From Caldimonas mangrovi (GTDB taxonomy: Bacteria > Pseudomonadota > Gammaproteobacteria > Burkholderiales > Burkholderiaceae_C): a stretch of DNA of 64,000 nt. The notes beneath the pieces were generated by a model. It was not told where the DNA came from. It saw only the letters and a list, made by a program, of their open reading frames with translations, and made no database searches. Below are positions 8,285 to 57,204 of the stretch, one piece after another (the first letter of the stretch is position 1; each line of letters opens with the position of its first letter). Both the position numbers and the translations under genes were made by a program. The stretch is taken from assembly GCF_023721835.1 (NCBI RefSeq), contig NZ_JAMKFE010000004.1, positions 248,001-312,000 on the forward strand, written 5' to 3'.

Positions 8285-8959
8285 ATGTCCGACCTCGACA
8301 GGCCTGTCTGGGCCAGCCTGCGGCATCGACCCGATTGGCGCCTGGGTGACGAGCGCGCCTGGCGCTTCCGGCCCGACATCAACCGTTTCGCCGCGACGCC
8401 CGACGAAAACCCCGAGCACCTGTCGGCGCTGGCCGAACTGGTGCAGCCGGGCGATGACAGCGTGTACCTGCTGCAGGTGCCACCCATCGCCGTGCCGCCC
8501 GGCCTGGAGGCGGTGAAGGCCGCGTCGGGCGTGCAGATGCTGGCGACGCGACAACTGCAGGCCGACGACGGCGTGCAGGTGCTCGGCGTGGCCGACGCGG
8601 CGGAGATGCTGGCACTCGCCACGCTCACGGAGCCCGGCCCCTTCCTTGCGCGCACGCACACGATGGGCCGCTTCATCGGCCTGCGCATCGACGGTCGACT
8701 GGCCGCGATGGCAGGAGAGCGCATGCGCTTTCCCGGCTATGTCGAGGTCAGCGGGGTATGCACCCACCCCGATTTCCGCGGCCGAGGCCTGGCGAGGCGA
8801 CTGTCCGCCGCGGTGACCGCCGACATCCAGCGCCGCGGCGAGCAAGCTTTTCTGCACGCCTGGACGACGAACACCACCGCGATCGCGCTCTATGAAAAAC
8901 TGGGCTTCGAAGTGCGGACGGCGGTGAACGTCTCGGTGCTTCGGCGCCGGCCCGGCTGA
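8285..8959 (+). CDS. GNAT-family N-acetyltransferase (FR47-like)
   Basis: Predicted acetyl-CoA-dependent acetyltransferase, 224 residues. The GNAT domain is in the C-terminal half: VSGVCTHPDFRGRGLARRL carries the (R/Q)xxGx(G/A) acetyl-CoA pyrophosphate loop, followed by the NTTAIALYEKLGFE motif B. The N-terminal ~110 residues are less conserved, as in FR47-like proteins. It follows the MarR gene by 2 nt, which implies co-transcription. Acceptor substrate unknown; a small-molecule amine or amino acid is the family norm. Confidence 0.87.
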   Translation: MSDLDRPVWASLRHRPDWRLGDERAWRFRPDINRFAATPDENPEHLSALAELVQPGDDSVYLLQVPPIAVPPGLEAVKAASGVQMLATRQLQADDGVQVLGVADAAEMLALATLTEPGPFLARTHTMGRFIGLRIDGRLAAMAGERMRFPGYVEVSGVCTHPDFRGRGLARRLSAAVTADIQRRGEQAFLHAWTTNTTAIALYEKLGFEVRTAVNVSVLRRRPG

Positions 8960-9089
8960 GCTGGGGTGCGCCTGGCCTGCTCGGTCCCGACGCTGCCCAC
9001 GCCGATGTGATGGCGTTGGTGGGGTCCTGGCACGGCGCAGGCGGTGCACAGGAGAGGGATCCCAGCCTTCCTGTTGCCGAGCCTGCAGA

Positions 9090-9470
9090 AGACCGCAGGG
9101 GCTGGGGACCCTTGCGGGCCACTCCGAAGCGAGGTCTACGCCCGCTTCAGGTAAATGCTGTCGTTGGCACTTACGTGGTTTGCTCTGCTTACGGCAGTCG
9201 CCTCTCGGATCGTCGATCTCCACGTCGATGCGCCGTCGAAACCGGTCGGCCCCACGAGCCTGCAGACGATGGATCTGCACGCTGGTGGAGCCGGGGGGAA
9301 TCGAACCCCCGTCCGACACACGTCAGCTTCGAGCTTCAGGGTCTTGCGCGACAAGCCGCGCCGAACCCACACGATCATTGGGTGCGCAACTGCGGGCGAC
9401 GAACGAGCCCTCGGTTGTGCGGTGTGACCCAACCTTGCTGGCCGGCCACGAGCCCCTATTGGCGCAGTTC
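9090..9470 (-). ncRNA. ssrA: Circularly permuted (two-piece) tmRNA, beta-type
   Basis: Ribosome-rescue RNA encoded in permuted order on the minus strand. The acceptor piece comes first: T-arm GGGGGTTCGATTCCCCC, then CGGCTCC-A-CCA ending at 9283. An intervening loop follows (9282-9254), and then the coding piece begins with GGGGCCG at 9253. GGGGCCG pairs with CGGCTCC (seven pairs, one G-U), which rebuilds the tRNA-like acceptor stem across the two pieces. The tag reading frame is at 9168-9136 and encodes ANDSIYLKRA. A hairpin at 9117-9093 probably closes the coding piece. The outer ends given are approximate; pseudoknot-rich sequence extends upstream to about 9470. Encoded CCA and tag position rule out an ordinary tRNA. 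Confidence 0.9.
9136..9168 (-). other. tmRNA proteolysis-tag reading frame (ANDSIYLKRA)
   Basis: The mRNA-like segment of the permuted tmRNA: GCC AAC GAC start (Ala-Asn-Asp, the usual proteobacterial beginning), ten codons, then TAG. The C-terminus Lys-Arg-Ala differs from the common Leu-Ala-Ala recognised by ClpX. Confidence 0.85.
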
Positions 9471-9631
9471 CGCGCCGCGGCGGGGCGGTTCTCCGGAATG
9501 AATGATTGAAAACGCGAAATGGACGCAGCGAGCCCGGGCTTCGTCCGCGCACAACCGCACCTCGTTGAGCAGCTTGTACCCAGGACCAGCAGTGGCACAT
9601 GCCGACCTGCGTGCGGTGCACGCGGCGGCGC

Positions 9632-10828
9632 CTATTTGGTGACCAGGCGCAGCGCTGCCGCCGGCAGGCCGGCAGGGGCTGACACCGTCAGTTCCTGGTC
9701 CTGGTGCATCAGGCGGCCGCGGCCGCGCTGCTTGGCGGTGTACAGCGCCCGGTCGGCTTCGAGCAGCATCTCGTCCAGCGTGCGCGCGGGGTCGCCCATC
9801 ACGGCCAGGCCCGCGCTGTAGGCCAGCGGCGCGGCGGTACGGGTTTCGTTGCGCTCGCGTACGGCCTCACGCAGCCGGGCGTCGAACGAGGTCGCCGCGC
9901 CGGCCTCGGCGCGTACCAGCAGCACGCAGAACTCCTCGCCGCCGTATCGGCAGGCCAGCTCGCCCTTGCGCATGCAACTGCGCAGCGCGTCGGCGAACAG
10001 CTGGAGTGCCTGGTCGCCCGCCGCGTGGCCGCCCAGGTCGTTGATCTGCTTGAAGCGGTCGAGGTCGATGATCAGCAATGCCATCGGGTCGCAGTAGCGG
10101 CGTGCTTCGGCGAGGGCCGCCTCAGCGCGCTCGACGAAAGCGCGCCGGTTCAGCAACCCGGTCAACAGGTCGGTCTGGGCCTGGCGCTGCAGTTCGCGCT
10201 CGGCCTCTTCGCGCCAGGCAGCGAGGCTGGCCATCGTCAGCAGTGTGATGACGACCGGGTGCAGCAGGGCGGCGGCCAGGTTGGCCGGGTGCGGTGCGCG
10301 CAGGTGGGGGTAGAGCTCGGTGAAGAAGCCGCCCAGCGCGCCGCGCCAGAGCGTGACGACCGCCAGCACACCGAGGGCGACGAACATCACGCCGCGCCAG
10401 CGCCGGCCGGCGTGCGGTGCCGGCAGCACGACGGAGATGCAGACGGCGATCATCAGCGCTGCCAGCCCGAAATTCGCCCATGCGACCCGGAACGGGTAGC
10501 TGTCGAAACCGGCCCAGTAGCCCACCGGGGTGAGCACCGCGACGGCCCACACGGCCCAGCTGCCGGCACGAGGGGCCAGCCAGTGCTGCATGGCATGCCA
10601 CGAGCACGCGAAGCACAGGCTCAACCACGCCATCCACAGCGAAGAGAAGGTCCGGTCGTCGATCGCCCGCGCGAGCAGGAAGCAGCCCCAGGCGATGGCC
10701 TGCGCGAGGATCGCACCCTGCGCGTAGCGTGCGCCCGGGCTGACGCGCCAGCCCATCAAGGCAGGCATCGCCAGCGACACCGAGAAGACGTTCGCGAGCG
10801 TGACGATGATGAGGGTCTGGACGTCCAT
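9632..10828 (-). CDS. Membrane-bound diguanylate cyclase (GGDEF)
   Basis: Makes cyclic di-GMP from two GTP. 398 residues from the start used: about six hydrophobic helices fill residues 1-200, then a GGDEF domain (about 230-390). The domain shows LIIDLDRFKQINDLGGHAAGD, the active-site GGEEF (CRYGGEEFCVLL) and the terminal LYTAKQRGRGRL. No RxxD inhibitory site was seen five residues before GGEEF. A longer reading frame to 11032 has an Arg/Pro-rich, non-membrane-like extension and was rejected in favour of the Met at 10828, directly before the first helix. The sensory role of the membrane part is unknown. Confidence 0.88.
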   Translation of the reverse strand: MDVQTLIIVTLANVFSVSLAMPALMGWRVSPGARYAQGAILAQAIAWGCFLLARAIDDRTFSSLWMAWLSLCFACSWHAMQHWLAPRAGSWAVWAVAVLTPVGYWAGFDSYPFRVAWANFGLAALMIAVCISVVLPAPHAGRRWRGVMFVALGVLAVVTLWRGALGGFFTELYPHLRAPHPANLAAALLHPVVITLLTMASLAAWREEAERELQRQAQTDLLTGLLNRRAFVERAEAALAEARRYCDPMALLIIDLDRFKQINDLGGHAAGDQALQLFADALRSCMRKGELACRYGGEEFCVLLVRAEAGAATSFDARLREAVRERNETRTAAPLAYSAGLAVMGDPARTLDEMLLEADRALYTAKQRGRGRLMHQDQELTVSAPAGLPAAALRLVTK

Positions 10829-53900: not shown

Positions 53901-55082
53901 TTAGCGAAGAAGTTTTTCGAGCCGGTCAACTGCTTCTTCCAGCAGGTCCATCCGGCTGGCATAGGACAGGCGGAGGTAGCGTTGCGTGTCCGCTGTGCCG
54001 AAGTCGCGCCCGGGCGTCACCGCCAGCTGTGCCCGCTGCATCAGGTCGAACACGAAGTCCCAGCTGCTGGCGTGATGCGCTGAGCAGTCGGCCCAGGCAT
54101 AGAAGGCGCCGTCGGGCAGGACCGGCACGCGCAGGCCGAGCCGCTCCAGCGCCGGCACCAGGAAGTCCCGCCGCGCCTTGAATTCGCGGCGGCGGCGTTC
54201 GTACTCGGCCAGACTCTCGGCCTCGAAGCAGGCCAGGGCCGCGTGCTGCGCGACGGCGGACGGGCAGATGTAAAGGTTCTGCGCGAGCTTCTCGACCACC
54301 GGCACCAGTTCGTCCGGCACCACCAGCCAGCCCAGCCGCCAGCCGGTCATGCTGAAGTACTTCGAGAAGCTGTTGACGGTGATCACGTCGTCGCCCAGCG
54401 CCAGCGCACTGTGGCCATAGGTGTCGTCGAAGCTGAGGCCGAGGTAGATCTCGTCCACCATCGTCACGCCGCTGCGAGCGCGTACCTGCTCGGCGATGCG
54501 TCGCATCTCGTCCGGGTGGATCGACGTGCCGGTGGGGTTGGACGGCGACGCCAGCAGCACGCCGCGCGTGCGTTCGCCCCAGGCCTTCTCGACACATGCC
54601 GCCGTCAGCTGGAAGCGCGCATCGGGGCCGCTCGGGACCATCACCGCCCGGCCGTGTGCCGCGGCGACGAAATGCCGGTTGCACGGGTAGCTCGGGTCCG
54701 GCATCAGGATCTCGTCGCCGGCGTCCACGAGCGCCAGGCAGGCGAGCTGCAGCGCACCCGAGGCACCGGCCGTCAGCACGATGCGCCGGGCCGGCACCGC
54801 CACGCCGAAGCGCTCGGCGTACCAGGTGCTGATGCGTTCGCGCAGCGCTTCCAGCCCGAGGGCCGGCGTGTACTGCGTCAGGCCGCCGCGCACGCAGCGC
54901 TCGGCGGCTTCCTGCACCAGCGGCGGTGCGGTGAAGTCGGGTTCGCCGATGTTCAGGTAGATCATCGGCCGGCCGCCCTGCGCGGGGTCGCACACGGGGC
55001 TGCGTGCGATCTCGGCGGCGGCCTTCGCGCACTCCATCACGTAGAACGGCTCGATGAGCCCGGTACGCGCAGCGAGTTTCAT
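53901..55082 (-). CDS. Pyridoxal-phosphate-dependent aminotransferase (class I/II)
   Basis: 393 residues, fold type I. The PLP lysine is in VNSFSKYFSMTGWRLGW (about residue 236). Other marks: IYLNIGEPDFTAPP near the N-terminus, LTAGASGALQLACLAL, NPTGTSIHPDEM and the terminal RLSYAS. It resembles aspartate/alanine-type transaminases. It follows nusB on the minus strand by 18 nt and may be read through from the rib operon. Specific amino donor cannot be assigned. Confidence 0.88.
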   Translation of the reverse strand: MKLAARTGLIEPFYVMECAKAAAEIARSPVCDPAQGGRPMIYLNIGEPDFTAPPLVQEAAERCVRGGLTQYTPALGLEALRERISTWYAERFGVAVPARRIVLTAGASGALQLACLALVDAGDEILMPDPSYPCNRHFVAAAHGRAVMVPSGPDARFQLTAACVEKAWGERTRGVLLASPSNPTGTSIHPDEMRRIAEQVRARSGVTMVDEIYLGLSFDDTYGHSALALGDDVITVNSFSKYFSMTGWRLGWLVVPDELVPVVEKLAQNLYICPSAVAQHAALACFEAESLAEYERRRREFKARRDFLVPALERLGLRVPVLPDGAFYAWADCSAHHASSWDFVFDLMQRAQLAVTPGRDFGTADTQRYLRLSYASRMDLLEEAVDRLEKLLR

Positions 55083-56088: not shown

Positions 56089-57204
56089 TCAACGCGGCTC
56101 CGGCCCGAGAAAACCAGTCACTTCAAAACCATAGCCGGCCACCATGCTGGGCATGCGGCGCGGGCTGCCGAGCAGCCTCATGCGCGCCACGCCGAGGTCG
56201 CGCAGGATCTGCGCCCCGATACCGTAGGTGCGCAGGTCCATCTGGCCGCGCGCCGCGGGCCGCGGCACCGCGTCGTCGCGGAAGTGGTCGAGCAGGTCGT
56301 CGACCGACTCGCCGCAGTTGAGCAGCACCGCCACCGCGGCCGGCTCCTGCTGCAGCCGCGCAAGCGCCTTGCCCAGCGGCCACGAGTGCTGGCATTCGCC
56401 GGCGTCGAGCAGGTTGAACACCGACAGCGGCTCGTGCACTCGCACCAGCACCTCGTCGGCTTCTTTCCACCGGCCCTTCACGAGCGCCAGATGCAGGCCC
56501 TCGGAGCGGTCGCGGAAAGCAACGCACCGGAACTCGCCATGAGGCGTGCACAACGTCCGCTCGCCGGCGCGCTCGATCAGCGACTCGTTGCGGCTGCGGT
56601 ACTCGATCAGGTCGGCGATCGTGCCGATCTTCAGGCCATGCTCGCGCGCGAAGATGTCGAGATCCGGCAACCGCGCCATCGTGCCGTCGTCGTTCATGAT
56701 CTCGCAGATCACGGCGGCCGGTGTCAAGCCCGCCATCCCGGCCAGGTCGCAGCCCGCCTCGGTGTGGCCGGCGCGCATCAGCACGCCGCCTTCCTGGGCC
56801 TGCAGCGGGAAGATGTGGCCCGGCTGGACCAGGTCGCTGGCCTTGGCTTCCTTGGCGACGGCCACCTGCACGGTGCGCGCGCGGTCGGCCGCCGAGATGC
56901 CGGTGGTCACACCGGTGGCAGCCTCGATCGAGACCGTGAACGCGGTGCCGTGCTTGGTGCCGTTGCGGCTTGCCATCGGCGGCAGTTGCAGCCGCTCGCA
57001 GCGGTCTTTCGTGAGCGTCAGGCAGATCAGGCCACGGCCGTGCTTGGCCATGAAGTTGATTGCCGCTGGCGTCACGTGTTCGGCCGCCAGCACCAGATCG
57101 CCTTCGTTTTCACGATCTTCTTCATCGACAAGCACGACCATCCGGCCGGCAGCCAGCTCGGCAATGATCTCGGGAACGGGGGAAATCGGCATGATGGGCG
57201 CCAT
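56089..57204 (-). CDS. ribB: 3,4-dihydroxy-2-butanone-4-phosphate synthase with degenerate GTP cyclohydrolase II tail (RibBX type)
   Basis: 371 residues. The N-terminal RibB domain (about 1-205) is intact: [30 protein letters not shown], and [13 protein letters not shown], which supply the Mg-binding Glu and His. The C-terminal ~160 residues align with GTP cyclohydrolase II but lack its zinc cysteines. The motif after RVHE reads [12 protein letters not shown] with no GD-x8-C-x-C, and the RQEGRGIGL substrate motif is also missing. So the tail is catalytically dead (the RibBX arrangement) and another ribA is needed elsewhere. Starts at 57222, 57204 and 57192 are all possible. Confidence 0.9.

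Follow-up and report, generated by a model that had tools for sequence, protein, structure and literature searches.

A probable phage-derived second tmRNA gene, circularly permuted, beside the standard ssrA of Caldimonas mangrovi

Which tmRNA serves a bacterium whose chromosome carries a two-piece gene with an atypical peptide tag, and what becomes of the proteins so tagged? These questions are raised by a locus in the window, the whole 64,000-nucleotide stretch of Caldimonas mangrovi DNA analyzed here (assembly GCF_023721835.1, contig NZ_JAMKFE010000004.1, positions 248,001 to 312,000 of the forward strand). The first-pass annotation read a permuted two-piece tmRNA on its minus strand, with a tag ending in Lys-Arg-Ala. 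The explanation that fits best, and that we regard as likely, is a second, phage-derived and structurally intact two-piece tmRNA that exists beside a normal one-piece tmRNA, would use the host SmpB and would probably give its tagged proteins an altered fate.

Structure and covariation of the permuted gene

A complete circularly permuted tmRNA gene occupies window positions 9379-9056 on the minus strand and encodes the tag ANDSIYLKRA. ARAGORN calls a permuted tmRNA with this tag at 9045-9375, and the Rfam model tmRNA_permuted (RF04321) aligns along its whole length (positions 1-213 of 213) to 9343-9136 with 94.1 bits (E = 6.3e-17), above its gathering score of 47. The annotation had placed both ends correctly on the minus strand: the CCA of the first piece stops at 9283, and 9253 is the first base of the GGGG that opens the coding piece. 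The comparison with beta_tmRNA (RF01850) that it had proposed gave a match to the window gene (78 bits, E = 9.5e-24), but one below the gathering score of 84. The lack of such a hit, which the annotation had listed as counting against its reading, applies only by half. The genes of Roseateles YR242 (L070), Variovorax KK3 (L075) and viral contig L134 score 84.7-84.9 with this model, just above gathering. Structure was compared in an alignment of five sequences (A2) consisting of the window gene, three from Variovorax and one from Roseateles. The gene is organized as follows:

9388..9410, minus: putative leader block, conserved, upstream, GGGCTCGTTCGTCGCCCGCAGTT; GGGC/GCCC pairing possible
9283..9379, minus: acceptor piece, transcribed first, ends in CCA, 5' end approximate (ARAGORN, RF04321, alignment A2)
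9294..9310, minus: T-arm, GGGGG-TTCGATT-CCCCC, invariant in 5/5 sequences
9287..9293, minus: 3' half of the acceptor stem, CGGCUCC, partner of 9253-9247, with a compensatory change at one pair
9254..9282, minus: intervening sequence, a 29-nt hairpin predicted to be absent from the mature RNA, with two compensatory pairs (helix 4)
9056..9253, minus: coding piece with the 5' half of the acceptor stem, pseudoknot-type stems and the tag frame, 3' end approximate (ARAGORN, RF04321, alignment A2)
9247..9253, minus: 5' half of the acceptor stem, GGGGCCG, G.U as third pair (sequence and covariation)
9139..9168, minus: tag frame ANDSIYLKRA, TAG at 9138-9136 (ARAGORN; homologous tags in four further genomes)
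9124..9150, minus: stem CTGAAGC / GCTTCGG around the tag end (helix 6), which we take to be P5-like, 100% paired in the five sequences with 6/7 pairs invariant
9061..9106, minus: 3' pseudoknot-type stem CCCAGCC / GGCTGGG with an inner hairpin (helix 8), one compensatory pair

The acceptor stem is rebuilt across the break, as had been proposed. CGGCUCC (9293-9287) and GGGGCCG (9253-9247) form seven base pairs with the pieces in reversed order; the stem is 100% paired in all five sequences, and the one compensatory change is a pair that is G-C in the window and A-U in the four relatives. The third position is a G.U pair (G9251.U9289). A G3.U70 pair is a mark of alanine tRNAs. The ARAGORN reading of the tag frame runs from the resume codon through ANDSIYLKRA to the TAG stop, the organization of a permuted tmRNA. 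The C terminus is Lys-Arg-Ala and not the Leu-Ala-Ala or Ala-Ala of the LAA (C-motif-1) class. No sigma-70-like promoter was found at 8950-9700, and no riboswitch at 8950-9640. Elsewhere in the window, at 56992-57095 on the plus strand, the Rfam model V_AS9 scores 54.3, slightly above its gathering score of 50; this match falls within a predicted long open frame and is perhaps spurious.

Nine proposed helices were scored in the alignment. They keep 98.9% of paired cells at pairwise identities of 76.9-93.5% among the five sequences. Two-sided pair changes number 5, compared with a shuffled mean of 1.4, and this count was reached in 0/500 shuffles. Sliding the partners gave 0-1 two-sided changes, a comparison biased in favor of the proposed structure, which was drawn from the same five sequences. 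Further pair types, one of five measures, are not significant (12 versus 10.8 shuffled, reached in 55/500). Helices with two-sided changes are the acceptor stem formed across the break, the hairpin of the spacer (at two pairs), the T-arm-adjacent helix and the 3' pseudoknot-type stem, helix 8, where one pair is A-U in the window and G-C in the four relatives. The tag frame is open and followed by a stop in 5/5 sequences. Its variable sites comprise 4 synonymous and 3 non-synonymous, conservative differences, too few for a test with five sequences. The tag end is part of helix 6, and nucleotide conservation there therefore does not serve the peptide alone.

The standard tmRNA and the close relatives of the permuted gene

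A standard tmRNA in one piece is also present in the window genome; it lies at G000:C1:162065-162423, scores 203.7 bits and has the tag ANDERFALAA. The first-pass annotation had implied a lone permuted ssrA of the kind that characterizes a bacterial lineage, and had listed an additional, standard ssrA among the findings that would count against its reading. The standard gene refutes the idea that the permuted gene is the resident ssrA; it does not refute the permuted gene itself, which is apparently a sporadic, phage-derived second copy. The permuted gene is thus not the sole ssrA of the genome, which has one SmpB and one SspB. Its contig is 422,513 bases long, with the nearer end 165 kb away from the gene, and the genome is 99.99% complete and 0.08% contaminated.

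Permuted genes are infrequent among related genomes. RF04321 was searched against 399 family genomes, the window genome included, at E <= 1e-9. Nine exceeded the cut-off, of which ARAGORN classified five as standard (dropped) and four as permuted: the window genome, G199 (ANDERFLAAA), G257 (ANQDVYHVEQMPLAA) and G380 (ANAITTAKNAIAKAMASSKKSVALDAAFA). All four permuted carriers have a standard tmRNA as well. Hits over the cut-off were obtained in 3/60 genomes, namely the window genome, G055 (permuted) and G014 (standard according to ARAGORN); the G055 gene is a classical beta permuted gene within the order and has the tag ANDERFALAA. None of eight same-genus genomes has a permuted hit over the cut-off. 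Four of the eight same-genus loci were fetched, and ARAGORN reports standard genes there, two with an overlapping permuted call that was discounted. Such overlapping permuted calls, in L011, L015 and L024, were set aside for an implausible 23-residue tag beside a standard gene. When the DNA of the window gene was searched against 399 genomes of the order (E <= 1e-12), only the window genome matched. The MarR-GNAT stretch gave short matches in 7/8 same-genus relatives, the longest alignment being <90 bases.

Close relatives of the gene were found elsewhere. An exact-pattern scan of 84,980 named species genomes recovered nine loci, exact matching being a procedure that misses others. Four of them share 76.9-82.5% identity with the window gene and carry the tags ANDSIYLKQA (Variovorax WDL1), ANDSFYLKQA (Variovorax KK3), ANDSFYLKQAT with an added T (Variovorax WS11) and ANESLYLKQA (Roseateles YR242). 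The five genes thus have one tag type, AN(D/E)S(I/F/L)YLK(Q/R)A, one with an extra T. Because the four relatives end in -LKQA or -LKQAT, the Lys-(Gln/Arg)-Ala end is inherited and is not a sequencing error. The -KRA end called by ARAGORN is therefore real, and the reservation about a sequencing error that had accompanied its first report is excluded. A standard tmRNA with a tag ending in LAA is present in 7/7 genomes of loci L070-L076, and all five genomes of the clade hold such an additional standard gene. In the genus Variovorax, that of WS11, the permuted gene occurs in 3/101 genomes at 80-81% identity.

The DNA common to the five loci in BLAST is the gene and ~40 upstream bases (window about 9048-9417); WS11 and WDL1, the sole exception, also share flanks. 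GNAT and GGDEF genes neighbor the window copy, a sigma-54 activator the Roseateles YR242 copy, a LuxR/PAS regulator and a weakly hydrolase-like gene the WS11 copy, and a RES/Xre toxin-antitoxin pair the KK3 copy. The differing neighbors and the absence of common flanks, except between WS11 and WDL1, indicate that the gene has come to lie at unrelated sites.

Toxin-antitoxin genes recur near permuted second tmRNAs. The RES/Xre pair of KK3 (L075:4748-5847) is directly downstream of the tmRNA, a BrnA antitoxin gene occupies the same position in Stenotrophomonas DE0483 (L073:705-992), and ParE/Phd-YefM genes are located ~1.7 kb away in WDL1 (L074:174-808). This proximity could reflect chance or mobile-element cargo; it was not adopted as a functional clue, since no such gene was found beside the window copy. 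In Roseateles YR242 the frame adjoining the tmRNA (L070:3612-5081, minus strand) matches pentatricopeptide (PPR) repeats with E = 2.3e-19. PPR repeats are unusual in bacteria.

Relationship to viral tmRNA genes

Three pattern scans of IMG/VR recovered permuted tmRNAs of broadly this type on 66 viral contigs. ARAGORN assigned a tag to 62/66 of these loci and none was obtained for 4/66. There are 42 distinct viral tags, of which 37 end in Ala-Ala and 32 in Leu-Ala-Ala. The ARAGORN tags of L076, L094 and L166 look mis-started, and that of L166 is read here as ANESTFLKAA.

The IQ-TREE phylogeny covers 63 sequences, with identical rows merged (L112 equals L101 over the compared stretches). Neither tree includes L100 or L131, which are truncated, and the second also omits L097. 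The five chromosomal genes form a clade with an ultrafast bootstrap (UFBoot) value of 100 in IQ-TREE. This clade belongs to a 12-member group (UFBoot 87) together with L134, L166, L121, L138, L078, L101 and the G380 phage region, a position among permuted genes from tailed-phage contigs. The nearest sister differs by tree, being L134 plus L166 in IQ-TREE (UFBoot 53) and L138 in FastTree (0.87), and in both trees the nearest genes to the window clade are viral. The one classical beta permuted gene included falls just outside a wider group holding the window clade in IQ-TREE and in the other half of the tree from that clade in FastTree.

Phage structural genes lie within ~4 kb of several of these tmRNAs: terminase genes in L134 and L166, portal and major head protein genes in L138, and terminase, portal and major head protein genes in G380. 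The L134 tag is ANESTFLKVA, and the peptide endings can plausibly be ordered -LKAA, then -LKVA, then -LKQA and -LKRA. In G380 (L047 / L062) and L138 the permuted tmRNA is situated between the portal and major head protein genes. The G380 tag is unusually long, and tRNA-Met, tRNA-Ser and tRNA-Arg genes are nearby. The phage gene at L166:2591-2896 (minus strand) has the shortest spacer noticed, only 3 nt from CCA to GGGGGTG.

A leader motif, which is outside the data used for the trees, is shared with five viral contigs. T[CT]GTCG-N2-5-GCAGT, a form loosened after a stricter one gave 4/77, is found upstream of 9/79 permuted tmRNAs, and the reversed motif of none. The carriers are the window, the three Variovorax genes and viral contigs L101, L112, L121, L134 and L166. 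Of the five motif-bearing viral contigs, four belong to the 12-member group; the fifth, L112, matches L101 exactly over the compared stretches. The motif had no match in Roseateles, L138, L078 or G380.

Among the neighbors tested, no phage structural genes were found around the window gene. Ten window proteins have Pfam matches of transport, regulatory or metabolic types; six of these match only PHROG families labeled 'unknown', 'other' or 'moron', and none matches a head, tail or packaging family. By the genes tested, the window gene does not lie in a phage or prophage; by sequence it groups with genes on phage contigs. A plasmid origin found no support, as no match was obtained in 72,556 plasmid records. 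In phage records the only match was a short T-arm/acceptor stretch in five Pseudomonas phages.

Tag fate, alternative readings and known systems

The full tag, A-ANDSIYLKRA, has 11 residues, as does E. coli AANDENYALAA. AANDENY is described as the SspB-interacting fragment of the ssrA tag (PMC12373786), and the front of the window tag, A-A-N-D-x-x-Y, matches this SspB-tethering part. The SspB-binding half is thus probably retained, judging from the peptide sequence. According to PMC9382460, the terminal three residues LAA are critical and common. That account gives as an exception the Mollicutes, with NYAFA read mainly by Lon, and reports that a DAS+4 tag, without LAA but with the SspB part kept, was degraded when SspB was supplied. 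The window tag ends without the Leu-Ala-Ala that ClpX and ClpA read, and proteins carrying it would therefore probably be degraded otherwise than those carrying the resident tag. Slower SspB-dependent degradation, ClpX recognition in the manner of C-motif-2, another protease or no degradation are all possible fates.

It is doubtful, though less so than the readings weighed below, that the tag is simply a normal ClpX signal of the C-motif-2 class, so that ClpXP would degrade tagged proteins and ClpA would not. Among the C-motif-2 examples tabulated in PMC9775585 are MuA RRKKAI, YbaQ RAKKVA and PaaA HARKVA. Lys at -3 with Ala at -1 is shared by the window tag, three of the four relatives (LKQA), L134 (LKVA) and L166 (LKAA). 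ClpA is not known to recognize this class. The likeness spans two or three residues, however, the listed motifs are more basic further back, and one relative ends in LKQAT.

The remaining alternatives concern the gene itself. A decaying relic, that is, a phage tmRNA left after prophage loss and no longer made or used, would suit its sporadic occurrence (in the order, 1/399 genomes at E <= 1e-12, the window's own; in Variovorax 3/101), the finding of no phage structural genes around it and the finding of no promoter-like site at 8950-9700. We consider this reading unlikely, since 98.9% of paired cells are kept at 76.9-93.5% identity with 5 two-sided changes against 1.4 in shuffles, and the tag frame is open with its stop in 5/5 sequences. 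Much less probable is an ordinary, vertically inherited permuted ssrA of the betaproteobacterial beta_tmRNA lineage acting as the main tmRNA of the genome. The RF01850 match (E = 9.5e-24) speaks for it, as does G055 with a classical gene in the same order that IQ-TREE places just outside the wider group; it is refuted by the standard ssrA, and the sub-gathering RF01850 score, the 0/8 permuted same-genus genomes and the viral nearest genes in both trees also argue against it. A sequencing or assembly error in a frame that really encodes LAA, or a contaminant contig, has next to no probability. The ending is unusual, with 37/42 distinct viral tags ending in AA, but -LKQA or -LKQAT in four other genomes refutes an error, and the position of the gene 165 kb inside its contig, in a genome of such completeness and low contamination, speaks against a contaminant.

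The likely reading, a phage-derived second tmRNA, suggests the following course. Transcription would give a single precursor, from which the 29-nt hairpin that separates the CCA end from the coding piece would be excised, and the two pieces would be held together via the acceptor stem and the neighboring helix. On the simplest reading trans-translation would then take its ordinary course: after alanine charging and loading with the only SmpB of the host, the RNA would rescue ribosomes that have stalled, with translation resuming on the tag, and add A-ANDSIYLKRA. Tagged proteins might then undergo slow SspB-dependent degradation, be recognized by ClpX via the basic C-motif-2-like end, or pass to another protease. 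More tentatively, the cell may have two tmRNAs and two tags, a resident LAA tag and a phage-derived one with an SspB handle and an -LK(Q/R)A end. The second channel would rescue ribosomes and either spare the chains from ClpA and fast ClpXP or route them to another protease, and it would have been kept by several Burkholderiales after phage loss. If expressed, the gene places two rescue tags with different C termini naturally in one bacterium, and an old question could then be put to the test in vivo: how the benefit of trans-translation divides between ribosome rescue and tag-directed degradation. The locus also suggests that phage tmRNAs may settle in chromosomes beside standard ssrA, where such second genes would escape annotation that assumes one gene per genome.

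The window gene resembles RF04321 and RF01850 genes in gene order, the acceptor stem across the break, the T-arm and the location of the tag-frame end within a stem. It differs in being a second gene beside a standard ssrA, in its LKRA rather than LAA tag and in its sub-gathering RF01850 score. Phage two-piece tmRNAs such as that described for phage Melnitz (PMC9004378) are permuted ssrA of the phage type, as in the window; unlike them, the window gene is chromosomal, with no phage structural gene and no riboswitch found nearby. The same account counts 133 unique phage tmRNA structures, with 53 classed as two-piece by ARAGORN. Second or third ssrA genes, sometimes plasmid-borne, are described for some genomes in PMC4131195, whose passages on these alleles describe no permuted second copies with one non-LAA tag in common. 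In the article text covered by the literature search, no description of the clade or of its shared -LK(Q/R)A tag was found. PMC11915505 lists 11,946 permuted sequences, and its database may contain this clade.

Pseudomonas phage SM1 (KU245542.1) also has a permuted gene, and its T-arm/acceptor stretch is 94.6% identical to that of the window gene over 37 bases. The SM1 gene differs in an intervening sequence of about 112 nt, a tag that ends in LAA and a position outside the 12-member group of the window gene. It lies where the phage record has no annotation (L040, record positions 54041-54461) and encodes the tag ANDTSFDVRLAA; an overlapping standard-form ARAGORN call with the tag ATEGVYLELL was discounted. 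The 37-base stretch is common to four other phage records.
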